Of a stretch of 64,000 nucleotides of DNA, positions 4,170-61,540 are shown in pieces. The stretch spans positions 1 to 64,000 of the forward strand of contig WQZB01000012.1 of assembly GCA_009780955.1 (NCBI GenBank), written 5' to 3'. The notes beneath the pieces are model-generated. The model searched no databases, was not told where the DNA came from, and saw only the letters and a program-made list of their open reading frames with translations. The position numbers and the translations under genes were made by a program. Positions within the stretch are counted from its first letter, which is position 1; each line of letters starts with the position of its first letter. This stretch comes from Polyangiaceae bacterium. Its GTDB lineage: Bacteria; Myxococcota_A; Polyangia; Polyangiales; Polyangiaceae.

Positions 4170-4188
4170 GCGTTACCGGCTTTGCGCG

Positions 4189-4295
4189 GTAGGTGCGCGA
4201 TTCATCGCGCCCTCGGGATTGGCGATCCGCCTGCGGTTGGGCGCCATAAATGGCGCCCCTACGAATGTGTCTTGTATGGGCGACGTGCGCCCCTA
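4189..4295. repeat. REP-like GTAG hairpin cluster A
   Basis: It starts GTAGGTGCGCGATTCATCGC (hairpin GCGCGAT/ATCGCGC), continues to an opposed hairpin GGGCGCCATAAATGGCGCCC followed by CTAC (to 4262), and ends with another ...GCGCCCCTAC at 4295. Heads reading GTAG in opposite orientations around imperfect palindromes are the classic layout of REP/BIME elements mobilised by RAYT transposases. A RAYT gene is present at 50104. The last CTAC supplies the TAG stop of the minus-strand gene at 4293. Confidence 0.7.
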
Positions 4296-10127: not shown

Positions 10128-10736
10128 ATGAAGAGGATTGGCGGCCGCAGGCTTGCAGCATGGGCGTTTCCTGGGGTGGCGGTGGCGATCGCAATCGCGC
10201 CAATCGTTATGGCGAGCGGCACGGCAGTCGCTGCCAATCGCGCCGATGACGCCAATCGCGATCGCGGTGCCGCAGAGGCTGCACTCAAAGAAGTCGAAGC
10301 GTCGCCAAAGAAAGATGTTGCCACGGTGTTCCTTGCCAAGGCACGCGCAGCTCTCGAGCGAGCATCGAAGCTTCGCGCAGCCGGCGATGAGCCTCACGCA
10401 CGACTCGCCGATGGCCTCGCCCTCGCGTGGGCCGAGGCTGCAAGCGACACGCTGAGGGCAGCCAGCGCCGAAGAGAAAGCGGCAGCCGCCGCGCGATCTG
10501 CAAACGACGCCGGCGCCCAGGCCGAGCGCGAACGCGCGCTACTCGAAGAAAGCATCACGCGGAGCGGGCGGCTACGCGCAGAGCTCGACGCACTCGAACG
10601 CAAATCGAAAGAAGAGCCTGCGCGCACGAGCAAAAGCGCGAGCAAAAGCGAGAACGAGAGCGCTGGCGCGGCCAAACCGAAGGCAGCCGAGAAGGCAAAC
10701 GAGGCAAGCAAGGCGAAGAATAGAGGCGCGCGATGA
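10128..10736 (+). CDS. secreted coiled-coil protein, partner of the DUF4398/OmpA-like gene
   Basis: A 202-residue protein with a cleavable-looking signal peptide (MKRIGGRRLAAWAF... ending SGTAVAA) and a helical, Ala/Glu/Arg-rich body. About 40 residues of Lys/Ser/Ala-rich low complexity close the protein. The region around VFLAKARAALERASKLRAAGDEPHARLADG resembles the DUF4398 helical-hairpin pattern. Its stop overlaps the next gene's start (ATGA at 10733), so the two form an envelope operon. Specific function unknown. Confidence 0.6.
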   Translation: MKRIGGRRLAAWAFPGVAVAIAIAPIVMASGTAVAANRADDANRDRGAAEAALKEVEASPKKDVATVFLAKARAALERASKLRAAGDEPHARLADGLALAWAEAASDTLRAASAEEKAAAAARSANDAGAQAERERALLEESITRSGRLRAELDALERKSKEEPARTSKSASKSENESAGAAKPKAAEKANEASKAKNRGAR

Positions 10737-11908
10737 TTCGAAAACTGCATGCAGTTTGGATTGGTGCGCTGATGGGGGCGCTTTCCTTGACAGCGCTCGC
10801 GTGCGGCGGCGCGGCGGCAAACGCAGGCACTGCCACCCTTGCTGACGCGGAGAAAATTCGTTCGAACCTTGCCGGTCGTGATGCCCAGAACCTTGCGCCG
10901 CAAGTGTTCGCCATGGCCGAACAAGAGCTTCAACTCGCGAAAAATGCCTTTGCGAACGGCGATAAAGTAGGCGCGGACTTGCACGCGGACCGTGCCGTTG
11001 CTGCTTACGAGCGCGCCACGATCGCGGCGAGGCTCGCACGCGCAACACACGCGCTGGAGGCCGCCAAAGAAGCTCTCGCTCAAAGTAGCGAACAGGTTGG
11101 TCGTTTCTCGCTCGAGCGTGCAAAAATTGACCAGCAGTCTGACGATCTCGAAAAAAAGCTTCGCGTTACGCGTGAAGCCGAGTTGCCGTCGCCAAGTGGT
11201 CCGGCCGATCCGCAGCGCGAGCGCGCTCGTCTTCTCGCCGCAAAGTCGCTTGCAGTAGAAGCTCGGCTCCTTTGCAGCGCCGCGCGCCTTGTTTCGCCAC
11301 GAGCCCCCGGTCTTGCGGAGGCTGAAGCAGCTGTTGCTTCCCTCGGCAATCTCGAGAGCCACACCGAAACTGCCAAGGAAAAGGCACCAATCGACGCGGC
11401 AGCGCGAGCGCGCACCGCCTGCCTTGCATCGCTCACCAAGGCTCGGAGCCGCATGGAAGGCGGCCCTGATCGGGCAGACCAACTTCTCAGCGAGCTGTCT
11501 CAATCGCTCGCTGTACCAAAAACCCGCGACCGCGCCCAAGTAGACATCACACCGTCGCGCGATGAGCGCGGTGTTGTGGTGACGTTGCACCGAGCCTTCC
11601 ACGGCGAACTGCTTTCGCGCGATGCCGAGGCTTCTGTGAAAGAGCTGGGAAGAGTTGCGGCAGCTCATTCCGATGTCGGCGTACAGGTTGTCATCCACGA
11701 CGCCGATCCGCCGTCTGCGTCCAGCATGGCGACCGACAAGAAACGAGGTGAGGCTGCCCTGCGCGCGTTGGTCGACGGAGGCGCACCTAGCGCGCGCACG
11801 ACGGTCGAACAGGCCGGTGCGAGTGCACCGCTCATTGATCCGAAGAGTGCGCATGGCCGCGAGCGCAACGCGCGACTTGAGATCGTGTTCGTGGTTGGCG
11901 GTTCGTAA
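10733..11908 (+). CDS. lipoprotein with DUF4398 N-domain and degenerate OmpA-like C-domain
   Basis: A 391-residue protein. The signal peptide ends LTALAC-GG, a good lipobox. Residues about 30-110 carry the DUF4398 pattern (LADAEKIR, MAEQELQLAKNAF, GADLHADRAVAAYERA). A coiled coil follows. The last 130 residues resemble an OmpA peptidoglycan-binding domain (KKRGEAALRALVDGG, then RERNARLEIVFV near the end), but the canonical NxxLSxxRA helix is eroded. It probably sits in the outer membrane facing the wall. It shares an operon with the preceding gene, and a better-preserved version of the same pair lies at 16025-17369. Confidence 0.65.
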   Translation: MIRKLHAVWIGALMGALSLTALACGGAAANAGTATLADAEKIRSNLAGRDAQNLAPQVFAMAEQELQLAKNAFANGDKVGADLHADRAVAAYERATIAARLARATHALEAAKEALAQSSEQVGRFSLERAKIDQQSDDLEKKLRVTREAELPSPSGPADPQRERARLLAAKSLAVEARLLCSAARLVSPRAPGLAEAEAAVASLGNLESHTETAKEKAPIDAAARARTACLASLTKARSRMEGGPDRADQLLSELSQSLAVPKTRDRAQVDITPSRDERGVVVTLHRAFHGELLSRDAEASVKELGRVAAAHSDVGVQVVIHDADPPSASSMATDKKRGEAALRALVDGGAPSARTTVEQAGASAPLIDPKSAHGRERNARLEIVFVVGGS

Positions 11909-11983: not shown

Positions 11984-12057
11984 GGTGGCCGTAGCTCAGT
12001 TGGTAGAGCGCTGGATTGTGGCTCCAGCTGTCGCGGGTTCAAGCCCCGTCGGTCACC
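11984..12057 (+). tRNA. tRNA-His (anticodon GTG)
   Basis: The cloverleaf is complete: acceptor GTGGCCG/CGGTCAC, D-arm with AGCTCAGTTGGTAGAGC, anticodon stem CTGGA/TCCAG around TTGTGGC, and T-arm GCGGGTTCAAGCCCCGT. The G at 11984 opposite C73 (12057) is the extra G-1 diagnostic of histidine tRNA. CCA is not encoded. The last part of the gene is duplicated 107 bases downstream. Confidence 0.95.
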
Positions 12058-12062
12058 CTATT

Positions 12063-12082
12063 GCGTATGCGTTTGCATACGC
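12063..12082 (+). terminator. hairpin just after tRNA-His
   Basis: GCGTATGC and GCATACGC pair perfectly around GTTT, five bases past the tRNA. No U-run follows. It is a likely transcript end or processing structure. Confidence 0.45.
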
Positions 12083-12145
12083 CAAGCTCCGTGGCTCTGC
12101 ACGAACTGCACTCGTCCAGCGGGGCCGGACTCGTGCAGTTACGTG

Positions 12146-12173
12146 TCAAGCCCCGTCGGTCACCCTATTGCGT
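12146..12173 (+). repeat. 28-bp duplicate of the tRNA-His 3' end
   Basis: It matches 12039-12066 exactly, starting in the T-loop (TCAAGCCCCGTCGG) and running past the gene into TATTGCGT. Exact copies of a tRNA 3' end are typical of integrase attachment sites, but no integrase lies within the window. The repeat may instead come from a local tandem duplication (see 12301-12360). It lies in the 352-base gene-free stretch 12058-12409. Confidence 0.75.
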
Positions 12174-12175
12174 CA

Positions 12176-12300
12176 AGACCGCTTTCGATTTGACGCGATT
12201 TCTTCGTTGGCGGCTGCGGTGCGGTCCTCAAAGCCGGAAGAGGCTGTTCCGGTCCGCTCCTCGCCGCCGCCTCGAACTCACGTCAACTTGAAAGCGGTCT
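12176..12300. mobile_element. MITE-like element, copy 1
   Basis: A 125-bp non-coding element. Its ends, AGACCGCTTTCGATTTGACG at the left and the complement of AGACCGCTTTCAAGTTGACG at the right, form imperfect terminal inverted repeats of about 20 bases. A second full copy with strong similarity is at 43257-43381 and a right-end fragment is at 57479-57515. No transposase is encoded, and no clear target-site duplication is visible. Confidence 0.7.
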
Positions 12301-12360
12301 AGCTCGGTGGCTTTGCTATTGCTGCAGTTCGTCCAGCTGAGCCGGACCTGTGCAGTGTCA
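12301..12360 (+). repeat. degenerate copy of the segment at 12084-12145
   Basis: Both segments start AGCTC(C/G)GTGGCT and contain CGTCCAGC(G/T)G(G/A)G, CCGGAC and GTGCAGT in the same order. In the first copy, AACTGCAC and GTGCAGTT can pair. With the duplicated tRNA end in front, this indicates an old tandem duplication that the MITE-like element later split. Confidence 0.5.
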
Positions 12361-12409
12361 ATGTCGCAAAAGTTTACTGAAACGGCGAGCAGGGGCAACA
12401 TAGTGGTTG

Positions 12410-12757
12410 ATGTGGGCTCGTTGGATAGGTTTTTTCACCCTGGTTGCGGCGCTTGCGGGTTGCGTAGATACCTTGCCCGATAGAGTGGCACTCGCGCCCG
12501 AAGCACAACGCGTCGAGATCATTTACGATGCCCCAAACCTCGAAGCTTATGAACCTGCCGGTGAAGTGAGCGCACGAACTATTGGGCACGAGCTGAGTGA
12601 GTCACGTCGTCAAACAGAATATGCGCTTCGCAACCAGGCGGGCGCGAAAGGCGCTTCCTTCGTTTTGGTGGAAGATGCAACATCCCGTGCAGCTGGGGAT
12701 TTCAGCGGGCGCATCGTTGTGTCGGCGTACGGCACGGCATTCAAGCTAGCCAAGTAG
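12410..12757 (+). CDS. DUF4156-like lipoprotein
   Basis: A 115-residue outer-membrane-type lipoprotein. The signal peptide ends LAALAGC-V, a textbook lipobox. The mature part (RVEIIYDAPNLEAYEPAGEV, then helix ALRNQAGAKGASFVLVED) follows the pattern of DUF4156 proteins (sometimes RcsF-like in annotation), in which a short Rossmann-like fold gathers an ARNAAAxxGAN-type helix. The usual Cys pairs are absent. The ATG at 12410 is preferred over TTG 12407. It is monocistronic, and a hairpin follows the stop. Confidence 0.65.
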   Translation: MWARWIGFFTLVAALAGCVDTLPDRVALAPEAQRVEIIYDAPNLEAYEPAGEVSARTIGHELSESRRQTEYALRNQAGAKGASFVLVEDATSRAAGDFSGRIVVSAYGTAFKLAK

Positions 12758-12796
12758 TTCGCCCGGATCATTCATGACACGATTGCGATATGAAGT

Positions 12797-12826
12797 GGGC
12801 AGGCACGGATGCCTTCCGCCCTGCCC
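12797..12826. terminator. hairpin between convergent genes
   Basis: GGGCAGG (12797-12803) pairs with CCTGCCC (12820-12826). It lies between the DUF4156-like gene and the convergent phospholipase-D-like gene and can serve either strand. It also resembles the GGGGCAGG...CCTGCCC arm of the REP-like family. Confidence 0.45.
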
Positions 12827-12882
12827 GTGGTCGAAACCCATGCTACTAAGCTTCGACTCATATTTCATAGCGCATCTCGCGC

Positions 12883-13983
12883 CTAGCGCAAGGTGCCGTT
12901 CTGAAAGTCTGCTTCGATGACGTCGCGAACTTTGATGACTTCGGAATGAGTGTCGGTCACAAGGCCAATCTCGCGGTTTTCGAACAAGGCCGTTGGCGTG
13001 AAGTTCTGCGAGCCAACAAAAACGAACTTGTCGTCGACAACGATCGCCTTCGCATGAATGTACGGATTGCCAAGACCGACAACGGGCACCCCCGCTTGCT
13101 TTAGCTTCGTGAGGGCGGAAACCTGCGCGGGCGTTTCGTTTCGATCGCCGGCCGCTGTCGTGACCACGCGCACCGCGATGTTCGCAGCGTGAGAAGCGAT
13201 GATGGCGTCGGTCAAGCCAGTGTCTGACAGCTCCTGCACTTCGATGTCGAGCGAGCTCGTCGCGCTTTCAATGAGTGCTTTCAACCGATCGCGCGGGCTA
13301 ACTGGCTGCGCTTGTTCTGGCGAGACGACAAGCTTGCCTCCCACGGTGATTGGCCAGCCATGATAGTCGGCCTCGAAAACGGCTTCGGCATCGGCAACAT
13401 CGTCGGCGTCGGTATCGGTTGCGATGTATTCGCGGTTCGACGTGGCGCTCGACGCCGTGAGGTTCATCGTCATGATGAGAATTTTCTCGGCGTCGATGAT
13501 CACTGCCTTTTCGTGCGTGAAGGTGTAGTCGCTTGATGCCCACACGACGTCCACGTTTGCGTTCGTCAGCGTTTTGTACGCCGAGGCGTTGGTGGTGCTG
13601 TTTGGCGGAAAGTTTTGGTTCAGAACGACTTTGACGTCTTTGCCTTCCTGGTGCAGCGAAATGAGTGCATTTTGCACATCATGGTTGGTGAGAAGGTACA
13701 TTGTCATGTGCACGCTTTTCGTAGCCGCCTTGATCGCTTCGAGGATCGGCTCGCCAGAATCCCCCGGCTCGACCTGAATCGTGACGCTGTGGCTAACCTC
13801 ATCGCCACCGGTGGGCTCGCTCGAGCCCGAATCTGTGGGTGCATGCGCGTCGGGCGGAGCGCCCGAATCCGCGCTCGAATTTGTGCCCGATGGGTCCACG
13901 GCCGGCGCGGTAACGAGGTCGGTCGTGCTGGCCGTTGTGCACGAGAGCAACGCAAACGCAAAGACGTGACGCAAGATTGCCAT
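12883..13983 (-). CDS. phospholipase D-like lipoprotein with two HKD motifs
   Basis: A 366-residue exported protein of the PLD superfamily, cleaving or transferring phosphodiester bonds in lipids or nucleic acids. The signal peptide (MAILRHVFAFALLSC) ends in a lipobox at Cys15. A Ser/Asp/Pro-rich linker follows to about residue 60. Two catalytic half-sites are present, HEKAVIID (HxKxxxxD) in the first half and HAKAIVVDD followed by GSQNFTPTAL in the second. The second half is the better match, with downstream ENREIGLV. Lipoprotein anchoring suggests a periplasmic or surface role. ATG 13983 gives the signal peptide; a longer start at 14004 adds seven residues. Confidence 0.85.
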   Translation of the reverse strand: MAILRHVFAFALLSCTTASTTDLVTAPAVDPSGTNSSADSGAPPDAHAPTDSGSSEPTGGDEVSHSVTIQVEPGDSGEPILEAIKAATKSVHMTMYLLTNHDVQNALISLHQEGKDVKVVLNQNFPPNSTTNASAYKTLTNANVDVVWASSDYTFTHEKAVIIDAEKILIMTMNLTASSATSNREYIATDTDADDVADAEAVFEADYHGWPITVGGKLVVSPEQAQPVSPRDRLKALIESATSSLDIEVQELSDTGLTDAIIASHAANIAVRVVTTAAGDRNETPAQVSALTKLKQAGVPVVGLGNPYIHAKAIVVDDKFVFVGSQNFTPTALFENREIGLVTDTHSEVIKVRDVIEADFQNGTLR

Positions 13984-14009
13984 GCACTTACCATGGACCG
14001 GCAAACTCG

Positions 14010-14777
14010 ATGCGGCCAGTCCAGCTGTTGCCCAGGGTTGCCGAGGTGGCTCCCGGTGTCTTTGAAAAGCGCCTCACGTCACGAGAGCTTGACGACGCTC
14101 ACGCTGTCATGCATTTGCGCGCCGAAGCCAAGTTGCTGAAGGCCCTTGGGGGCATCGTCACTCCGGCCTTCGTCGACGCCGGAGACGACGCGCGCGGGCC
14201 GTGGCTGCGCATGGCGCGCGTGCCGTTCCCAACCCTTGCCGAAAGGCTCGAGAACGTGGGCGGTCCGCTTGCGCCGGCATGGATCGAGCGCTGTGCCCGT
14301 GCCGCTTTCCATGCGCTTGCCGTGGTGCACGAGGCTCGGGACGATAGCGGCCCGCTTCACATCGTTCACGCTGACATCAGCCCGGCGAATCTTGCTGCCG
14401 ATAGCGATGCTAGGCACGTTGTGCTGCTTGATTTTGGGCTGTCATGCTTTCGCGGCTTCCCGCAGCGCGACGGTGCATTTCGTGGAACTATCGCATTCGC
14501 CGCACCCGAGGTTGCACGAAGCGAAGTGCCGACTCCGAAAAGCGATTTGTTTTCGCTTGCCGCGGCACTCGTTGCTGCTGCCATGGGCAAGTCGCCAAGG
14601 CCACCTTTGCCACTGCCGGCCCTCATCGCGATGGCAGCGGACGTTCCCATCGTCACGAGCGAGATCCTCGTTCTTGCGGATCGTGGTCCTGCGCACGCCG
14701 CGCTTGTTCGCTGTCTTGCTCATGATCCCGCGTTGCGTCCCGACTCGGCACGCGAGATTGCAACGATGCTTGGCTGA
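14010..14777 (+). CDS. compact Ser/Thr protein kinase-like protein
   Basis: A 255-residue soluble kinase fold, smaller than the usual Pkn catalytic domain. Visible motifs are EKRL (candidate ATP-binding Lys), RAEAKLL (helix C Glu), HADISPANL (HxDxxxxN catalytic loop), DFG in LLDFGLSCF, and APE in FAAPEVARSE followed by KSDLFSLA. The glycine loop is poor. HAD replaces HRD, as in aminoglycoside-kinase-like and some bacterial kinases. There is no membrane segment. It starts 27 bases from the divergent PLD gene. A start further upstream would overlap that gene. Confidence 0.75.
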   Translation: MRPVQLLPRVAEVAPGVFEKRLTSRELDDAHAVMHLRAEAKLLKALGGIVTPAFVDAGDDARGPWLRMARVPFPTLAERLENVGGPLAPAWIERCARAAFHALAVVHEARDDSGPLHIVHADISPANLAADSDARHVVLLDFGLSCFRGFPQRDGAFRGTIAFAAPEVARSEVPTPKSDLFSLAAALVAAAMGKSPRPPLPLPALIAMAADVPIVTSEILVLADRGPAHAALVRCLAHDPALRPDSAREIATMLG

Positions 14778-14828
14778 CGCCCACTGAATAACTGGGCCAA
14801 CATCGCGTGCTGGTCTAAAGGAGCGCGT

Positions 14829-15995
14829 ATGCATATCGAAGGGCTCGCGCAAGACACGCTTTGCATTCACGCATCTCAAGAACCCGATCCCACTTCTGGC
14901 GCGGTGATGACTCCTATCGCTCTTGCAAGCACGTTCGTGCAGAACGGCCCTGGAGAGCACAAAGGCTACGACTACTCGCGCGCAGGAAATCCAACGCGCA
15001 CAGCACTCGAAGGCTGCCTTCTAGCCCTGGAAGGCGGCAAGCACGCCGTCGCGTTTGGCAGTGGATGCGCGGCAACGAGCTCCGTTCTTCTCTCACTCAA
15101 GAGCGGCGATCATGTGCTCGTTGGCGACGACGTGTACGGCGGCACGTTCCGCATTTTCGACAAGGTTCTCAAGCCATGGGGCCTCGATGCAACGTTTCTC
15201 GATATGACCGATCCGGTAAAGGTGCGGCAAGCCATAGGTCCGCGTACACGCCTCATTTGGCTTGAAACGCCGTCGAACCCCATGTTGAAAATCTTCGACA
15301 TCGCCGCCATCGCCGAGATCGCACGCAAGGCGAACATCCCTCTTGCGGTCGATAACACGTTCGCAACCCCCATGCTTCAGCGCCCGCTCGATTTTGGTGC
15401 GAGCCTCGTTGTCCATTCGACAACGAAATATCTCAATGGCCACTCCGACGTGGTTGGCGGTGCGGTCATCGCCTCGGACGATGCCATGGCAGAACGTCTT
15501 CACTTCTTGCAAAAGTCACTCGGAGCCGTGCCAAGCCCATTTGATTGCTACATGGTCCTTCGCGGCCTCAAAACCCTCGGCGTGCGCATGAAGCAGCATG
15601 TGCATAATGCACGCATTCTCGCCGAGGTTCTCGCGAGGCATCCGCAAGTCGAGCGCGTATTTTATCCAGGTCTCACTTCGCATGCGGGCTACGCAATGGC
15701 CGCGCGCCAAATGAAGGGTCCTGGCGGCATGATCAGCTTTGACCTCAAAGGTGGTCTTGCTGCGGCCGTCGCGTTTCTGAAGGCCACGCGTATCTTCGCG
15801 TGCGCCGAAAGTCTCGGTGGAGTCGAATCGCTCGCCGAGCACCCGGCCATCATGACCCACGCGAGCCTGCCGGCCGAGGCTCGCAAAGCGCTTGGCATTG
15901 GCGACGGTTTCATTCGTCTCAGCGTCGGCATCGAGAACGTTGAAGATCTCAAGCAGGATCTAGAACGCGGCTTTCACGCGGCCCGCAACACGTAA
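14829..15995 (+). CDS. cystathionine gamma-synthase/gamma-lyase family PLP enzyme
   Basis: A 388-residue trans-sulphuration enzyme of the Cys/Met metabolism PLP family. The pyridoxal Lys is Lys200 in HSTTKYLNGHSD. The PLP-phosphate loop YSRAGNPTRTALE is near residues 49-61, and WLETPSNP (about 144) and AVDNTFATP (about 173) bind PLP and substrate. The length is that of metB/mccB enzymes. Synthase and lyase cannot be separated by eye, and no other Met/Cys gene is adjacent. A clear AAAGGAG site precedes the ATG. Confidence 0.88.
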   Translation: MHIEGLAQDTLCIHASQEPDPTSGAVMTPIALASTFVQNGPGEHKGYDYSRAGNPTRTALEGCLLALEGGKHAVAFGSGCAATSSVLLSLKSGDHVLVGDDVYGGTFRIFDKVLKPWGLDATFLDMTDPVKVRQAIGPRTRLIWLETPSNPMLKIFDIAAIAEIARKANIPLAVDNTFATPMLQRPLDFGASLVVHSTTKYLNGHSDVVGGAVIASDDAMAERLHFLQKSLGAVPSPFDCYMVLRGLKTLGVRMKQHVHNARILAEVLARHPQVERVFYPGLTSHAGYAMAARQMKGPGGMISFDLKGGLAAAVAFLKATRIFACAESLGGVESLAEHPAIMTHASLPAEARKALGIGDGFIRLSVGIENVEDLKQDLERGFHAARNT

Positions 15996-17369: not shown

Positions 17370-17415
17370 TTCACGGTGGCGGCGAAGCGCGCGCGTGGCG
17401 CTTTGCCATGGCGTT

Positions 17416-17520
17416 GTAGGGGCGCCATTCATGGCGCCCGAATTCATGGCGCCTAACCGCGGCATTTTTGGAATTCATACCATTGGTAGATCCCGAGGGC
17501 GCGATGAATCGCGCCCCTAC
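17416..17520. repeat. REP-like GTAG hairpin pair B
   Basis: GTAGGGGCGCCATTCATGGC at the left and GCGATGAATCGCGCCCCTAC at the right are opposed hairpins with GTAG/CTAC outer ends, separated by about 55 bases containing a further partial copy. It fills most of the intergenic space between the OmpA gene and the next gene. Confidence 0.7.
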
Positions 17521-17571
17521 ACACAGAGGTATGTTCCTTGCTGGGCTCGGAGGTAGTTCGAGGAGAGAGAC

Positions 17572-35268: not shown

Positions 35269-36722
35269 TTATTGCTTTCGATTTTCGGCGAGCAGTCTCT
35301 CAGTCCCAGCGGCCGTCCGTCGGTACTGCTGCTTCGGGCTCCGGGGCTTGTCGGGGATGGTCATCTCCAGCAGGCCAGCCTCAAGCAGGGGGACCAAGAC
35401 TTGGTCCCGGAAACGCGTTTTATTCTTCTGGCCTGAGGGTGCCATAAGCTTAGGTAAAGATCTTGGCTTCGTTGTAATTTCAAGCACTTGAACTTGGTCT
35501 GTACTTAGGACGGGCTTAGGACCGACTTGGGACAGGCTTGATGCCATAAGATTTTTGTTTCGTTGCAATTTCAAGCACTTGAACTTGGTCTGTACTTAGG
35601 ACGGGCTTAGGACCGACTTGGGACAGGCTTGGGACAGGCTTGGTGCCATCCGGCAGAATCTCTGCGTGGAAGGACATCGTCGTGACCCCCATGTCGACCT
35701 TGAACGTTGGCGCCTCGATTCCCCACGCGCGGCACTCATCGATCACGCGATTGGTGCCCCGGCCCCAGACCTCGATGGCTCCCGTGCGGTGGAAGGCGCC
35801 CGCAACATGCGGGTTCCGAGGCTTCGATGGATGATCGACGGAGAGCTGCTCCGCACGTAGCCCAAACGGCAGATCGCCGACACTACGCACCTCGATGTGA
35901 TCGTCGAACACCGCGATGGCGACGTACGAACTTGGATCGCTGAGATCGCGGTGGATGACCGCGTTGATGATGATTTCACGGAGCGCCTCAGGCGGCACGG
36001 GCTGGCGGTCCTCGCGGAAGATGCTGCCCTTAGGGAAGCGCCCAGCGAGCGGCAAGATGCGATCGAGCCACGCGATGGCTTCGCGCACCATCGCGAAGGC
36101 GTGCATGTGTTCCTGCTTGTTGTCCAGAATGTCGCCGGTGATCTTCGTGCCGCGAAAGCGCCCAAGCTTGAGCAGCGCTTGCGGGTAGTTGGGCAGGAAC
36201 TTAGTTCCGTAAAGCATTTGCGCGGCCTGCGTGATCTGGCCATCGATGCGCAGGCCGAGGCGATCGAGGATGTCGCCAATGTCCATGCTTGTTCCGGCCG
36301 ACAGACGCCGATGCTCGATGGCGCTGGCGCGCGTGCGGAGGATCTCCTCGTTGTCGAGATCTTTGAGGCGCACACCGACGGCGGGCTGATTCTCCCAGCG
36401 ATGACGGCTGTGATTCCGGTCGAGCATCAGCCGTGCGTACTCGTCTTGCGCCATCACCGTGGTCGTTGAGCCGACGCGTTTGTACGGCTTGCCCTCGAAG
36501 ATAAACGGAACGAATTCTCTCGCCGATGGCGCTTCGAGCGCGATCACGGTGCGCCCGTCGCCGACGTCGATTCGGTCGATCTCGACTCGCGCCGGAGGAC
36601 TGACCACAGGCGCTCCGCGCCAGGCTCGGCGGCGCGCAAGGCGACCGCACTCTCGGAGAGCTGTTCACGAAGTGGTGTTCGATCGCGTTCTCGAACGCTC
36701 GCTCGGTGTGCTTGGCGATCAT
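35269..36722 (-). pseudogene. broken AlbA_2/ATP-binding regulator joined to an HsdR N-terminal scrap
   Basis: Reading on the minus strand, it opens MIAKHTERAFENAIEHHF, the typical first residues of type I restriction subunit R, overlapping the rhuM stop as ATGA. That homology stops after about 20 residues. From about 36600 a different frame encodes the later part of a putative DNA-binding/ATP-binding regulator: FEGKPYKRVGSTTTVM, IINAVIHRDLSDPSSYVAIAVFDD, FGLRAEQLSVDHPSKPRNP and WGRGTNRVIDEC. Its usual N-terminal domain is missing. Near the 3' end a 91-bp tandem duplication shifts the frame, and the winged-helix C terminus (RDQVLVPLLEAGLLEMTIPDKP) continues in another frame to 35269. It is not expected to be functional. 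Confidence 0.75.
35470..35649. repeat. 91-bp tandem duplication inside the pseudogene
   Basis: TTCAAGCACTTGAACTTGG starts at 35481 and again at 35572, and the surrounding sequence matches from about 35470 to 35541 and 35561 to 35632. A period of 91 is not a multiple of three, so it breaks the frame. The second unit also holds a short CTTGGGACAGG direct repeat. Confidence 0.8.
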
Positions 36723-41860: not shown

Positions 41861-43258
41861 GTGAGCAGCCGCGCCGTGCGTTTCCCTCGCTGTTTTCGAA
41901 TCGCGTCGTGCCACCAGGTATTCGCCAAGGTATTTGGCGTTGCAGCCCTCGTGGTGGCGCCATGGCTCCTTGGCTGCGCAGGGCATTCCGAGCGCACGCT
42001 GCCCATGCGTACGGCGCTCGACGCGGGCGATGCGAAAGGCGCGATTCGGATGCTCAATCACGAGCTCGATGTTGCGAATAGCAAAGAGCTACCAGAAAAT
42101 ATCCATGGCGATCATGCCATTCTCGTTCTCGACCGAGGCAGCATCCAGCAAGGGATCGCCGAATTTCCCCTGTCGAAACGCGATTTCGAAGCGGCCGACA
42201 AAGCCATCGACATGCTCGATCTCGCGCACAACGCGGGCGACTCGATTGGCGAGTACATCTTCAGCGGATCGTCGGGCAAATATCGGGCTCCTCCCTACGA
42301 GAAGCTCATGATCAACACGCTGAACATGCTCAATTACCTTGAAACGCGCGACCTCAACGGCGCGCGAGTGGAGGCACGCCGCCTAAGCGTCATTCAGAAT
42401 TATTATCGCGATTCGCTTGCGCAGCAAGACAACCCCGTGCTCGGCTTGGGAAGCTTGCTTGCGGGTTTTGCTTTCGAAAAGAGCGGCAGCACCGACGAGG
42501 CTTTGCGCTACTACGACGAGGCACTTGCGTTCACCGGCTTTGGCACGCTCGAAGACGCCGTGCAGCGGCTTGCTCGGCAAGGCACCTACCGGAGTCCGCG
42601 CATCACTTCGATCTTGTCGAATGTGGAAAAGAAAGCGCCGCAAGACAATGACACCGGCGACGTGCTCTTCGTCGTCGGCTACGGGCGCGTTCCGCACAAA
42701 ATTCCTCAGCGTATCCCAATTGGCCTTGCGCTTACCATGTTCTCGGGCTCACTTTCCCCGGGCAACGTTTCGGCGGCCAATCGGCTTGCGGCGCAGGGGC
42801 TTGTAACATGGATTAATTTTCCATCGCTCGCGCCAGGGAAAGGGAATCACGAGATCCCGTGGTGCCGTATCGACGGCAGTGACGTGCCCCTGGAAGAAGC
42901 CGTCAATGTCGATCGTGAAGTGCGCACGGAGTGGAAGAAAATCGAAGGCAAAATCATCGTGAGTGCCATCACTCGCCTCGTTGCACGCACGGCACTTGGC
43001 CAGGGAATCAACACGGCAGCTGGCAACAGCATTTTCGGTGTGCTCGCATCGCTTGGTACGCAGGCCACACTTACAGCGCTCGACACGCCCGACACACGAA
43101 GCTGGGAAACATTGCCGGCGCGCGTTGCCGTGGCGCGCGTGCGCTTGCCGGCAGGCAAGCACAGCGCGATCATCGACGCGCGTGGATGGCAACGCAGTCA
43201 GGAATTCGTGGTCGAGAAAAACGGGTGGGTGGTGATCTCGCTCATGGCTTTACGGTAA
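41861..43258 (+). CDS. COG3014-like lipoprotein with TPR-like helices
   Basis: A 465-residue protein. The signal peptide (VFGVAALVVAPWLLGC-AG) has a clear lipobox. The body has helical pairs resembling TPRs (GDAKGAIRMLNHELD, FEADKAIDMLDLAH-like, SGSTDEALRYYDEAL) and a C-terminal domain with VLFVVGYGRVPHKIPQRIPIG and a glycine-rich helix (AGNSIFGVLAS). It matches the COG3014-type proteins found beside LpoB-like genes. Starts are GTG 41861 or GTG 41876. The TAA stop lies at the left end of a MITE-like element. Confidence 0.75.
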   Translation: MSSRAVRFPRCFRIASCHQVFAKVFGVAALVVAPWLLGCAGHSERTLPMRTALDAGDAKGAIRMLNHELDVANSKELPENIHGDHAILVLDRGSIQQGIAEFPLSKRDFEAADKAIDMLDLAHNAGDSIGEYIFSGSSGKYRAPPYEKLMINTLNMLNYLETRDLNGARVEARRLSVIQNYYRDSLAQQDNPVLGLGSLLAGFAFEKSGSTDEALRYYDEALAFTGFGTLEDAVQRLARQGTYRSPRITSILSNVEKKAPQDNDTGDVLFVVGYGRVPHKIPQRIPIGLALTMFSGSLSPGNVSAANRLAAQGLVTWINFPSLAPGKGNHEIPWCRIDGSDVPLEEAVNVDREVRTEWKKIEGKIIVSAITRLVARTALGQGINTAAGNSIFGVLASLGTQATLTALDTPDTRSWETLPARVAVARVRLPAGKHSAIIDARGWQRSQEFVVEKNGWVVISLMALR

Positions 43259-43381
43259 CCGCTTTCGATTTGGCGCGATCTCTTCGTTGGCGGCTCCGGT
43301 CCGGTCCTCAAAGCGCAAGGAGGCTGTTCCGGTCCGGTCCTCGCCGACCGCCTCGATCTCGCGCCAACTTGAAAGCGGTCT
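43257..43381. mobile_element. MITE-like element, copy 2
   Basis: 125 bp. It matches copy 1 (12176-12300) throughout, including CTTCGTTGGCGGCT and AGGCTGTTCCGGTCC. The ends CCGCTTTCGATTTGGCGCGA and the complement of TCGCGCCAACTTGAAAGCGG are inverted repeats with about three mismatches. The left end touches the stop codon of the COG3014-like gene and the right end lies ten bases from the stop of the next gene, so it fills the convergent intergenic space. Confidence 0.75.
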
Positions 43382-50107: not shown

Positions 50108-50847
50108 CGCCAGTCATCCATAATGCGCATGACGCGAGTTGTTCCCAAAATGGAAACAAGTGGGTTTTCGCTATCCGACGCCCATTGCGCGGGATTGTCA
50201 CGGACGTATTGGCGGATGTGATTCAATGAGTCTTCATCGCGGATGATGTGCTCGTAGTAGTTGCGCTGCCACAGGCGACTCTGGAATGGCGTCCATCCGG
50301 CATGGCGAACACCATCGATGTACCGCTTCATCGTCAACGTCTTGAATCGTTGGACAACGACGCCCAAGGACATTGTACCAGCCAATGCAGGGCGGCCACG
50401 GGGGGCCGCCCCTACGAATACGTTGTCCCGCGCACCTACGGGGCGGCCACGGGGGGCCGCCCCTACGAATACGTTGTCCCGCGCACCTACGGGGCGGCCA
50501 CGGGGGGCCGCCCCTACGATTACGTTGTTGGCTGTAGGGGCAGGCCCCTGTGCCTGCCCTGCGTTGTGTCCTGATTCGACCGATAACACCACGATGCCGT
50601 GGAGGTGATTTGGCATGACGACGAAATCGTCTGTTGCGACGCCGGCATAGTGCGCAGATAACCCATTCCACACCTCGGCGATCATTCGTCCTGCATCATT
50701 CAATCGCATCTCTCCGTCGACGATCTCACCGAATAGACACGCCCGTTGGTGGGCGCAGATCGTTACAAGATAGGCCCCTGTCCGCGCGTAGTCGTAGCCT
50801 TTCATGCGGATGGACCTGCGGTGATGGCGAGCGCGGTCGAAGGCCAT
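50104..50847 (-). CDS. REP-associated tyrosine transposase (RAYT, IS200-like Y1 family) with internal REP units
   Basis: A 247-residue Y1-type HUH transposase-like enzyme that nicks single-stranded REP hairpins. The N-terminal block is [18 protein letters not shown] and [16 protein letters not shown]. The HUH motif is MPNHLHGIV, and the tyrosine lies in [19 protein letters not shown]. Between them a linker has grown by three in-frame copies of a 17-residue unit, [17 protein letters not shown], encoded by REP-like DNA. It overlaps hsdS upstream (TGATG) and rhuM downstream (ATGA). Both catalytic motifs are intact, so it may still be active. Confidence 0.9.
50391..50560. repeat. array of three 51-bp REP-like units plus one GTAG hairpin, within RAYT
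   Basis: GGCGGCCACGGGGGGCCGCC starts at 50391, 50442 and 50493, a 51-base period, each unit followed by CCTACGA(A/T)TACGTTGT. A GTAGGGGCAGGCCCCTGTGC hairpin ends the array (50534-50560). The period is divisible by three, so the transposase frame is kept. The last unit plus spacer plus hairpin matches 19211-19280. Confidence 0.85.
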
Positions 50848-57478: not shown

Positions 57479-57515
57479 GGACCGCCTCGATTTCGCGCCA
57501 ACTTGAAAGCGGTCT
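57479..57515. mobile_element. MITE-like element, right-end fragment
   Basis: 37 bases matching copy 2 at 43345-43381 with one difference (GACCGCCTCGATTTCGCGCC and on to AACTTGAAAGCGGTCT). The rest of the element is absent. It lies upstream of treT. Confidence 0.65.
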
Positions 57516-57563: not shown

Positions 57564-59012
57564 ATGTTCGAAGAGATTCAGGTGAGCGAACCCATCGGCC
57601 TCGAGGCCTACGAGAGCGAAGTCCATCTGTACGCCGATGTTGCCGCTTTGCGCGCCGAGGCCACGAGGCTTGTTCCCAAGTTGCGCGGCCGAACGGTGTG
57701 GATGGTGAACTCCACCTCACAAGGTGGTGGTGTCGCCGAGATGATGCCGAAGCTCGTGAGCCTGCTCGTCGAGGTTGGCGTGCGCTGCCGATGGGGTGTC
57801 ATTCGCTCTGACCGCGCGGCCTTCTTTCCGCTCACGAAACGCATTCACAACATGCTTCATGGGCAAGATGGCGGCACACTCGACGCGCACGATCGCGCTC
57901 TATTCGAATGTGTCAACCACCGCAATGCAAGCGACCTTGGCAGCATGATTGCCCCTGGCGACATTCTTGTCGTTCACGATCCCCAGCCTCTTGCTCTCGG
58001 CGCCTTGCTCAAAAAAAACCATGACATCACGACGATTTTTCGGACCCACATCGGCCTCGAGCACGAAACTCCGATAACGCAGCAAGCGTGGGCGTTTCTG
58101 AAACCGTATGCCGAAACGTACGACGCTACCGTTTTCACGGCCGAAGCCTACGTTCCGCCATTCCTTGCGGCACGCGCCACGACGATTCGCCCAAGCATCG
58201 ATCCATGGAGCCACAAGAACCGCGATCTGACACCACACAAGTTGATGGGTGTATTATGCAATGCAGGATTGCAAAGGGTCACGCAACCGGTTCTCACGCC
58301 GGCGTTCGAGCATCAAGCAGTGCGCCTTGGTGAAGGCGGTGACCCACTCGAAGACATCGGGCTTTTCTTTCGTCCCATCGTCACCCAGGTTTCGCGTTGG
58401 GACAGGCTCAAGGGCTATCACCCGCTCTTGCTCGCGTTCGTCGAGCTAAAAAGGCGGCTCGCTCGCGGCGCGATTCGCCTTGGCGATCGTCATGCGCGGC
58501 GCATCGAGCTTGCGCGGCTCGTGCTCGCCGGCCCTGATCCATCGAGTATCCAAGACGATCCGGAAGCCCATGACGTTCTTCGCTCGCTCACCACGTCATA
58601 CGCGGAGCTTTCACCCGAGCTCCGAAATGACATCGCCATCGTTACTTTGCCAATGCAGTCGCGCAAAGAGAACGCGCTCATTGTCAACGCCGTCCAACGC
58701 TGTTCGACCGTCATCGTGCAAAACTCGCTCGAGGAAGGCTTCGGGCTTACCGCAACCGAAGCCATGTGGAAGCGCGCTGCGGTTCTCGGCACCCACGCCT
58801 ACGGTCTGCGCTGTCAAATCCGCGATGGCATTGACGGCTTGCTCACGAAAAACCCGGAAGATCCGAATGAGATTGCCGATCATCTCGACGCGCTGCTTGC
58901 CGACGGACACCTGCGCGAACTCATGGGCAACGCTGCCCAGCGCCGCGTTCATGCTGAATCGCTCGTGTTCTCGCAGGTCGCCGCCTGGCTCCGTCTTTTC
59001 GATGCGCTGTAG
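57564..59012 (+). CDS. treT: trehalose glycosyltransferring synthase-like GT4 enzyme (TreT)
   Basis: A 482-residue retaining glycosyltransferase resembling TreT, which joins NDP-glucose and glucose to give trehalose. VWMVNSTSQGGGVAEMMPKLV near residue 35-55 is the family's GG loop. FRPIVTQVSRWDRLKGYHPLL starts the nucleotide-binding C-domain, and VQNSLEEGFGLTATEAMWK holds the ExxxxxxE motif. Possible starts are TTG 57552, GTG 57561 and ATG 57564. The TAG stop is the TAG of a REP-like GTAG head. It is convergent with ppk. Confidence 0.85.
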   Translation: MFEEIQVSEPIGLEAYESEVHLYADVAALRAEATRLVPKLRGRTVWMVNSTSQGGGVAEMMPKLVSLLVEVGVRCRWGVIRSDRAAFFPLTKRIHNMLHGQDGGTLDAHDRALFECVNHRNASDLGSMIAPGDILVVHDPQPLALGALLKKNHDITTIFRTHIGLEHETPITQQAWAFLKPYAETYDATVFTAEAYVPPFLAARATTIRPSIDPWSHKNRDLTPHKLMGVLCNAGLQRVTQPVLTPAFEHQAVRLGEGGDPLEDIGLFFRPIVTQVSRWDRLKGYHPLLLAFVELKRRLARGAIRLGDRHARRIELARLVLAGPDPSSIQDDPEAHDVLRSLTTSYAELSPELRNDIAIVTLPMQSRKENALIVNAVQRCSTVIVQNSLEEGFGLTATEAMWKRAAVLGTHAYGLRCQIRDGIDGLLTKNPEDPNEIADHLDALLADGHLRELMGNAAQRRVHAESLVFSQVAAWLRLFDAL

Positions 59013-59087
59013 GGGCGCGATTCATCGCGCCCTCGGTATTGCCCAATGGAAAATGCCGCGGTCGGGCGCGATGAATCGCGCCCCTAC
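59009..59087. repeat. REP-like GTAG hairpin pair E between treT and ppk
   Basis: GTAGGGGCGCGATTCATCGC (59009 on) and GGGCGCGATGAATCGCGCCC followed by CTAC (to 59087) are inverted copies about 28 bases apart. The left GTAG contains the treT stop and the right CTAC the ppk stop, so the element exactly bridges two convergent genes. Confidence 0.8.
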
Positions 59088-61540
59088 ACGTCGTCGTTGC
59101 GTGGGCGTCGCCGCTGTGCGCGAGGAACCTTGCCTTCGAGCGGTGAGCGTTGGGCTGTTGGCGTCATGTGAAAGCGGCTCGACGGCCGAGCAGCTTGATC
59201 GGCAACTTTGACCTTGTCGCGCGTTTGCTCGACGAACTTTTGCTGACTTCGAACCACGGGCGCGCCCGGCCGAAGCTGCGCGCGTACGTAAGCGCCGTTC
59301 GACTCGAGCAGCCAACCTTTGACGTTGTCAGCCCACGAGATGCCCAAGATTTCGATGAGGCGCGTGCGGATCTGCGGATCGTCGATGGGAATCATGACTT
59401 CAACGCGGCGGTGGAAGTTTCGTGGCATCCAGTCTGCGCTTGAAATGTAAACTTCGTCTTTGCCAGCATTGGCGAAATGGAAAACGCGACCGTGCTCAAG
59501 ATACCGATCGATGATCGCACGCACCTCGATGTTCTCGCTGACGCTAGGCACCCGAGGTCGTAAGCAACAAATGCCACGGACAAGCAAAGAGATCGGCACG
59601 CCTGCTTGCGACGCGCGGTAAAGCGCCTCGATGACGTCTTCGTCGACGAGGGAGTTCATTTTCGCGACGATGCGTGCGGGTCTGCCATGGCGTGCATGTT
59701 CGGCCTCGCGCGCGATGAGCCCAAGGATGGCCTCGTGCAGACCAAGCGGCGCGACCACGAGCGAGTTCCACGTCGTTGGCGCGCTGTAGCCCGTGAGCAG
59801 GTTGAACAGCGACGATGCGTCGGCGCCGATGCTTGGGCGTGCCGTGAGCAGAGCGACGTCGGTGTAAAGACGCGAGGTCGTCGTGTTGTAGTTGCCCGTT
59901 GAAAGATGGACATAACGGCGAAGGCCTCCGCGCTCGCGGCGAATGATGAGCAAGCACTTCGCGTGTGTTTTTAGGCCTAATAGGCCGTAGACGACGTGCA
60001 CGCCGCTTTGCTCGAGCGTGCGCGCCCAAACGATGTTCGACTCTTCGTCGAAGCGTGCTTTCAATTCAACGATGGCCGTGACTTGCTTGCCCGTTTCGGC
60101 CGCGCGCGCCAGGGCCTTGACAATGGGCGAGTCGCCGCCAGCGCGATAAAGCGTTTGCTTGATGGCGAGCACATCGGGATCTTCCGCTGCGCGCGTGATG
60201 AGTTCGACGATCGGCTCGAAAGACTCGTAAGGGTGGTGCAAAAGAATGTCGCCTTCGCGAATGACCGCGAAGATGTCGTCGGCGTCGCGCAGCGGGGCTG
60301 TGACTAGGGGGCTGTATGGGTCGTCGCGCAAGTCGCGACGCTCGTCACGCGGCACCCAGCTCATGAGATCTGCCACGTTGAGAAACGGCGTGCGGTACAC
60401 GTCGCGATCCGGATCGAGCTTGAGCGCGCGAACGAGCTTGGCGAGCGAGTCTGGGCTTGGCTCGCCTGCTACCTCGAGGCGGACTGCAGCACCGCGCTCG
60501 CGGCGACGCAATTCTTGCTGGATTGTTTGAAGGAGATCTTGCGCTTCTTCTTCGTCGATCTCGAGGTCGAAGTTGCGCGTGACTCGGAAGGAATAAACGC
60601 CCTTCAACCGTACGCCTGGGAAAATGGCGCCCACGTGACGCGCGATGAGATCTTCGAGGAGCACGTACGCGTGCCGTGCTCGCCGGCCGTCGATGCGCAC
60701 GCCCGATACGTCGAGCAACCGAGGTAGCATCATGGGTACTTGCACAACGCCGAAGCCAGGCTCGTTCTCGCCCTCGCGTGAGAACATGACGCCGAGGTTC
60801 AGGCTCTTGTTGCGCACGTGCGGGAAAGGATGCCCTGGATCGATTGCGATCGGCGTGAGGATCGGAAACGTTTCGTTGTGAAAGCGTTCGTCCATCACGG
60901 CGAGCAGGTCGGCCGGGAGCTCTTCGGGTTTGAGCAGAACGAACGTGCCGTCGGCGGCGAGGCGCGGCAGCAAGTTGCCCACCAGGCTAGAGGCTTGCTG
61001 CGCCATGAGCTCGTGAGCGCGCACCGAAATTTTTACGAGTTGCTCGTGTGCGGTGAGACCGTCAGCAGCAAGCTCCCCAACCTCGCCGGTGATCTGCTGC
61101 TTGAGGCCGGCAACGCGAACCATGAAAAATTCGTCGAGATTCGACGCAACAATGGCGTGAAACTTCAATCGCTCGAGCAGCGGCACAGGCTCGTTTTCAG
61201 CCTCGGCAAGCACGCGCGCGTTGAATTCGAGCCACGAGAGTTCTCGATTCAAGTAGAGCGAGGTTGCGCGCAGATCAGGCACCTGGGACGCCTGGTCGGA
61301 GGTAGCCGGCAGACTGGAGGAAGAAGAAGCGGCCTCTGGGTAGCTGGGCGCTACGGCCGGTGACGACAGCGGTGCCGGTGGAATCGATGGATCCGATGGC
61401 GCAGGGGATGGCACCGGTGCCAATGGCTTTCCGGCTGCTGCGCTGCTCGTTGCGATTGTGCCCGGCGATGCCGCCAACACCGGAGGGGGATTCGGCGTTG
61501 ACGCGATTGACGCGGGCGCGCGTTCGCCTGGAATTTTCAT
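59084..61540 (-). CDS. ppk: polyphosphate kinase 1
   Basis: An 818-residue enzyme that makes polyphosphate from ATP. A low-complexity Pro/Ala/Ser N-terminal extension of about 80 residues precedes the core YLNRELSWLEFNARVL. The phospho-His region is KTHAKCLLIIRRERGGL (HxK), and a second conserved region is SSADWMPRNFHRRVEVMIP. The core length is normal. The C terminus has an extra tail of about 55 residues (RSQQKFVEQTRDKVKVADQ to RRRPRNDDV). ATG 61540 is used. Confidence 0.94.
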   Translation of the reverse strand: MKIPGERAPASIASTPNPPPVLAASPGTIATSSAAAGKPLAPVPSPAPSDPSIPPAPLSSPAVAPSYPEAASSSSSLPATSDQASQVPDLRATSLYLNRELSWLEFNARVLAEAENEPVPLLERLKFHAIVASNLDEFFMVRVAGLKQQITGEVGELAADGLTAHEQLVKISVRAHELMAQQASSLVGNLLPRLAADGTFVLLKPEELPADLLAVMDERFHNETFPILTPIAIDPGHPFPHVRNKSLNLGVMFSREGENEPGFGVVQVPMMLPRLLDVSGVRIDGRRARHAYVLLEDLIARHVGAIFPGVRLKGVYSFRVTRNFDLEIDEEEAQDLLQTIQQELRRRERGAAVRLEVAGEPSPDSLAKLVRALKLDPDRDVYRTPFLNVADLMSWVPRDERRDLRDDPYSPLVTAPLRDADDIFAVIREGDILLHHPYESFEPIVELITRAAEDPDVLAIKQTLYRAGGDSPIVKALARAAETGKQVTAIVELKARFDEESNIVWARTLEQSGVHVVYGLLGLKTHAKCLLIIRRERGGLRRYVHLSTGNYNTTTSRLYTDVALLTARPSIGADASSLFNLLTGYSAPTTWNSLVVAPLGLHEAILGLIAREAEHARHGRPARIVAKMNSLVDEDVIEALYRASQAGVPISLLVRGICCLRPRVPSVSENIEVRAIIDRYLEHGRVFHFANAGKDEVYISSADWMPRNFHRRVEVMIPIDDPQIRTRLIEILGISWADNVKGWLLESNGAYVRAQLRPGAPVVRSQQKFVEQTRDKVKVADQAARPSSRFHMTPTAQRSPLEGKVPRAQRRRPRNDDV

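Follow-up and report, generated by a model that had tools for sequence, protein, structure and literature searches.

Tandem copies of a tRNA-His 3′ end, the second split by a MITE, in a Polyangiaceae genome

Introduction

Behind the tRNA-Tyr genes tyrT and tyrV of Escherichia coli lie head-to-tail repeat units that follow the tRNA directly, each opening with a tRNA 3′ end that starts inside the T-loop. At tyrV, which served as our yardstick, the units are 178 bp long and begin with the tRNA-Tyr 3′ end, the shared stretch running from position 58 (A58) for about 27 nt or more, and the repeat region contains the annotated small RNA RttR. Repeats of this kind behind tyrT are so far known as an oddity of one locus.

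Genomic islands in tRNA genes (tDNA islands of the Islander class) likewise show a displaced tRNA 3′ fragment, in like orientation and with a boundary in the T-loop; the length filter applied to them is 2–200 kb (PMC4383910).

Here, we describe a locus in a myxobacterial genome where two units stand directly 3′ of an intact tRNA-His gene, each with the 3′ end of that tRNA and each starting inside the T-loop (at T55; other cases start at 55–58). It differs from the E. coli repeats in its tRNA, in its 107-bp unit and its two copies, in a flank that has no homology to theirs, and in that this flank has diverged and been split by a miniature element (MITE). The locus adds a new case to the tyrT-type repeats, and a wider pattern surrounds it.

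Materials and Methods

The window analysed is the whole stretch of 64,000 nt at positions 1–64,000 (forward strand) of contig WQZB01000012.1, GenBank assembly GCA_009780955.1, from a genome placed near Labilithrix-type Polyangiaceae; coordinates below refer to it unless a contig is named. Tandem tRNA-His ends were sought by a family-wide pattern search of 108 genomes. Names of neighbouring genes are readings of their translations rather than database matches.

Results and Discussion

The tRNA-His locus

Features of the locus, and of comparable loci in relatives, are collected in Table 1. Whole-genome searches revealed a single histidine tRNA gene in this genome and one other match to it, on contig C28 (75% over 57 nt, E 3.6e-4), which we regard as another tRNA. 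The tRNA-His was the sole Rfam match at the locus.

Table 1: Coordinates of features at the tRNA-His locus and of RNA-gene loci sharing a hairpin in two relatives.
Feature	Position or locus	Strand	Evidence or remark
tRNA-His (GTG), intact	11985–12058	+	ARAGORN, Rfam, whole-genome searches
Copy 1 of 28-nt core: T55 of T-loop to tRNA end, plus 8 nt of flank	12039–12066	+	
Copy 1 flank: 16-nt extra stretch (12067–12082), then second hairpin, right arm ending at junction (12145)	12067–12145	+	
Copy 2 of 28-nt core: truncated tRNA 3′ end, no tRNA gene	12146–12173	+	
MITE, terminal inverted repeats GACCGCTTTC...GAAAGCGGTC	12177–12299	+	123 bp
Flank of copy 2, containing a hairpin; identity to 12084–12139 about 79%	12301–12356	+	
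TCAA after copy 2	12360–12363	+	sequence
Probable upstream region of lipoprotein gene 12407–12757	12363–12406	+	right edge of tRNA segment
tmRNA loci with shared hairpin	L223, L227		G250 and G262
tRNA-Pro loci with shared hairpin	L224, L226		G250 and G262
tRNA-Gln locus with shared hairpin	L225		G250

The initial annotation had reported a 28-bp recurrence of the tRNA end, and this proved exact: 12039–12066 and 12146–12173 form an identical direct repeat with a spacing of 107, leaving 79 bp between the copies. Exact repeats of at least 20 nt spaced within 300 bp number only three in the 64-kb window, this one included. As copy 1 stands, the tandem unit is thus 107 bp long; it opens at T55 in the tRNA-His T-loop and closes at a hairpin foot. 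The degenerate recurrence claimed for the segment after the tRNA was also borne out, for 12084–12139 against 12301–12356 (56 bp): the local alignment score was 58, compared with a maximum of 42 in 2000 dinucleotide shuffles of both segments, and the two are separated by a 1-nt indel and about 12 substitutions, five of them clustered. The second flank, starting at 12301, lies in register with copy 1. One correction is needed: 16 nt (ATGCGTTTGCATACGC) at 12067–12082 are absent from copy 2; in copy 1 they complete, with the preceding bases, a perfect 8-bp hairpin.

Hairpins are predicted to fold in both copies. The junction hairpin was discarded as independent evidence in this genome, since a comparable hairpin ends at 5–6% of random window positions. 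A genome search found no further copies of the flank hairpin elsewhere in this genome, and a promoter and terminator scan of the locus returned nothing, including no U-tract terminator.

With copy 1 constrained as part of a tRNA, the chance of an identical 28-nt core beside a flank that differs by about 14–21% was estimated by hand at about 2–7%. Either gene conversion or some special role of the core may lie behind this, although gene conversion is not required.

The MITE within the second copy

A MITE does split copy 2, as initially annotated, although its length is 123 bp rather than the 125 bp given. The family is abundant and dispersed over the genome: a genome search found at least 40 copies at 91–97% identity, and the terminal repeats gave 262 matches in the 4.2-Mb genome against one for a control pattern. 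Among 42 elements collected to define boundaries, lengths of 122–124 bp predominated, the ends were those listed in Table 1 and TA flanks were frequent. The copy at this locus is flanked by AA (12175–12176) on the left, probably a decayed TA, and by TA (12300–12301) on the right. Terminal inverted repeats, TA flanks, small size and high copy number are shared with IS630/Tc1-type MITEs that target TA, and together they are the signature of that class. Elsewhere in the window, TA-flanked members of the family occur at 43258–43381 and 57480–57515 (partial match).

Other tRNA genes of this genome and tRNA-His loci of congeners

Among the 43 tRNAs of this genome, no other has a copy of its end nearby. 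At a distance, a tRNA-Leu end of at least 40 nt on contig C61 recurs 7.0 kb on, beside an integrase. Tyrosine integrases lie immediately 3′ of tRNA ends (Met, Ser, Gly, Leu, Lys) on contigs C10, C44, C4, C18, C61, C1 and C3 of this genome (G000).

No short tandem copy of the tRNA-His end was present in the congeners examined, and no unduplicated state was found among close strains. In the congener G003, 21 nt of the tRNA-His end are repeated exactly at a distance of 9.9 kb on the 3′ side of the gene (L086, C6:130590–140496), and the interval holds no PF00589 integrase; G008 has a contig whose end falls inside a tRNA-His 3′ end, with other DNA behind. For these two reasons, integrating elements of the genus probably make use of the tRNA-His site.

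Tandem RNA-gene ends across the family and at E. coli tyrV

Tandem tRNA-His ends were found in three of the 108 genomes: this one, G250 and G251. G250 carries six copies (five matching intervals) with a 105-bp period, and G251 two with a 73-bp period. Of the congeners of G250, G262 has one unit with a degraded distal end and G030 has no tRNA-His unit. Tandem copying of tRNA ends is thus a recurrent kind of event, found in two other genera. The comparison of relatives proposed in the initial annotation accordingly gave a divided answer, with no unsplit duplication in the congeners examined but comparable ones in other genera of the family. The arrays of G250, G262 and G251, all from the same GTDB family, resemble our locus in starting at T-loop position 55–56, in their unit length (73–118 bp) and in containing native tRNA flank within the unit. 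Behind the last copy of the G250 array (L201/L229, C1:9343568–9344502) and of its G262 counterpart (L204/L228) stands a palindromic repeated element.

The G250 unit ends in a hairpin (CGTTCCTGTAC...GTACAGGAACG), and the further matches inspected in G250 and G262 sit behind tmRNA, tRNA-Pro or tRNA-Gln sequences. In each case, the 3′ end of the RNA in question is repeated right after the hairpin, from T-loop position 55 or 56 onwards. The tmRNA loci and one tRNA-Pro locus were identified by eye, since ARAGORN detected no more than the tRNA-Gln and the G262 tRNA-Pro, and the tRNA-Gln copy start (C56) was read by hand. At the tmRNA and tRNA-Pro loci, the last copy retains part of the native flank, as tandem duplication predicts. 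One hairpin thus recurs across several tDNAs in G250 and G262, whereas the hairpin of our genome is unrelated to it and confined to a single locus. At T-loop base 59, the tRNA-His genes of G250 and G262 differ, while each agrees with its own copies (concerted evolution).

Copies started at tRNA position 55–58 in all ten tabulated units, E. coli tyrV included, of which about seven are independent, as G250 and G262 share loci.

History and proposed mechanism

The best history, and one that we consider very probable, is a partial tandem duplication of the tRNA-His end followed by insertion of the MITE into copy 2. This order, already put forward in the initial annotation, is supported: with the MITE left out, copy 2 aligns to copy 1 without a break, and because it reads through in register, the element came after the duplication. 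The endpoints, one in the T-loop at T55 and one at a hairpin foot, agree with those of comparable repeats elsewhere in the family and, roughly, with those of E. coli tyrT. Weighing against this history are the identical core beside a diverged flank, the lack of significance of the junction hairpin in this genome, the absence of the unduplicated state from close strains and the T-loop boundary, which integrase att sites commonly share.

In outline, a head-to-tail duplication took in the T-loop from T55, the 3′ end, the trailer and the foot of the downstream hairpin, leaving tRNA-His intact and copy 2 as a truncated end. The flanks then diverged, and a TA-targeting MITE entered copy 2 between tRNA end and flank. 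The likely trigger is strand exchange, or a switch of template, that linked the exposed T-loop to the downstream hairpin region; we infer such a strand switch. TCAA opens both copies in the T-loop and also stands 3′ of the hairpin of copy 2. It may represent the microhomology of the duplication, and with TCAA in both places, microhomology-assisted tandem duplication would explain both junctions. Endpoints in the T-loop fit a template switch between hairpins and a recombinase exchange at the T-loop equally well.

On a wider scale, we suggest, tentatively and with the balance of probability against it, that a specific duplication process, in Polyangiaceae and perhaps also in E. coli, prefers T-loops of tRNA and tmRNA genes as its 5′ endpoint. 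In this proposal, a recombinase or a hairpin-guided replication switch would join the foot of a downstream hairpin to position 55–58 and so produce tandem arrays, with G250 and G262 using one conserved, tDNA-restricted hairpin at several tDNAs.

Alternative explanations

An enzyme that recognises a hairpin together with a T-loop might instead move or multiply segments running from the T-loop to the hairpin, our window holding a decayed product. What suggests this is that, at the His, Pro, Gln and tmRNA loci of G250 and G262, one and the same hairpin directly adjoins the T-loop copy start (position 55 or 56). We nonetheless consider it unlikely for the present locus, given a hairpin restricted to that locus, the lack of an identified enzyme and the failure of viral, phage and plasmid searches to return a relative.

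A lost integrative element, the alternative raised in the initial annotation, would make the two 28-bp copies the attL and attR of an element in tRNA-His that had been deleted down to 79 bp. Some of the evidence fits: a T-loop start is a usual att boundary (PMC4383910), the downstream 3′ fragment has the same orientation as the tRNA, and several tyrosine integrases lie directly behind other tRNA genes of this genome. The distant tRNA-His end copy in G003 and the G008 contig end point the same way, although the G003 interval lacks a tyrosine integrase (as judged by PF00589 only). The reading is weakened because homologous flanks follow the distal and the proximal copy, which fits tandem duplication rather than the edge of an island. 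The spacing of 107 bp also falls far short of the 2-kb minimum for tDNA islands, and the 79 bp between tRNA and fragment contain no tyrosine integrase. We regard an island remnant as improbable; the tRNA-His repeat does not need a lost island as its cause.

Retention of the repeats for a useful trailer transcript, in the manner of RttR behind E. coli tyrV, or as a double terminator, seems very improbable. RttR is an annotated small RNA in a comparable region and the predicted hairpins fold in both copies, but the flank has been free to diverge, no U-tract terminator was found and Rfam recognises only the tRNA. Function of copy 2 is unlikely because it consists of a truncated tRNA end with a drifting flank and is split by the MITE, and we infer that it has none. 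A misjoin of contigs at the high-copy MITE, conceivable in a 112-contig assembly in which the 123-bp element is many times repeated, is hardly credible, since copy 2 resumes in register on the far side of the MITE, as it would not after a random misjoin.

Significance of tRNA-end copies

That one T-loop boundary recurs behind the His, Pro, Gln and tmRNA genes of a distantly related group points to a general, island-free process that generates copies of tRNA ends. Such copies can pass for att sites or seed attachment sites. They may also be donors from which tRNA ends are rewritten, because base 59 in G250 and G262 differs between the species and agrees within each tRNA and its copies.

Gene order and other repeats in the window

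In congeners, the gene order is tRNA-His, a divergent lipoprotein gene (where found) and then phospholipase-D-like, kinase-like and cystathionine gamma-synthase-like genes. This cluster lies 5′ of tRNA-His in congeners and 3′ of it here, and the genes upstream of the tRNA here (OmpA-like, 10733–11908, and its neighbours) form a separate locus in relatives; the tRNA cassette has therefore been flipped or moved. From gene order, the tRNA-His locus (11985–15995) is a rearrangement breakpoint. The right edge of the tRNA cassette coincides with the end of copy 2, and a motif in the adjoining 12363–12406 resembles, by eye, a GAACTTTAC-like stretch that precedes the orthologous lipoprotein gene of relatives.

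Two other short tandem repeats occur in the window, at 35457–35631 (84 nt twice, period 91) and 50390–50542 (51 nt three times). Another palindromic repeat family (GTAGGGGCGCGATTCATCGCGCCC) is represented, in both orientations, at 4183–4264, 17410–17522 and 59003–59089.
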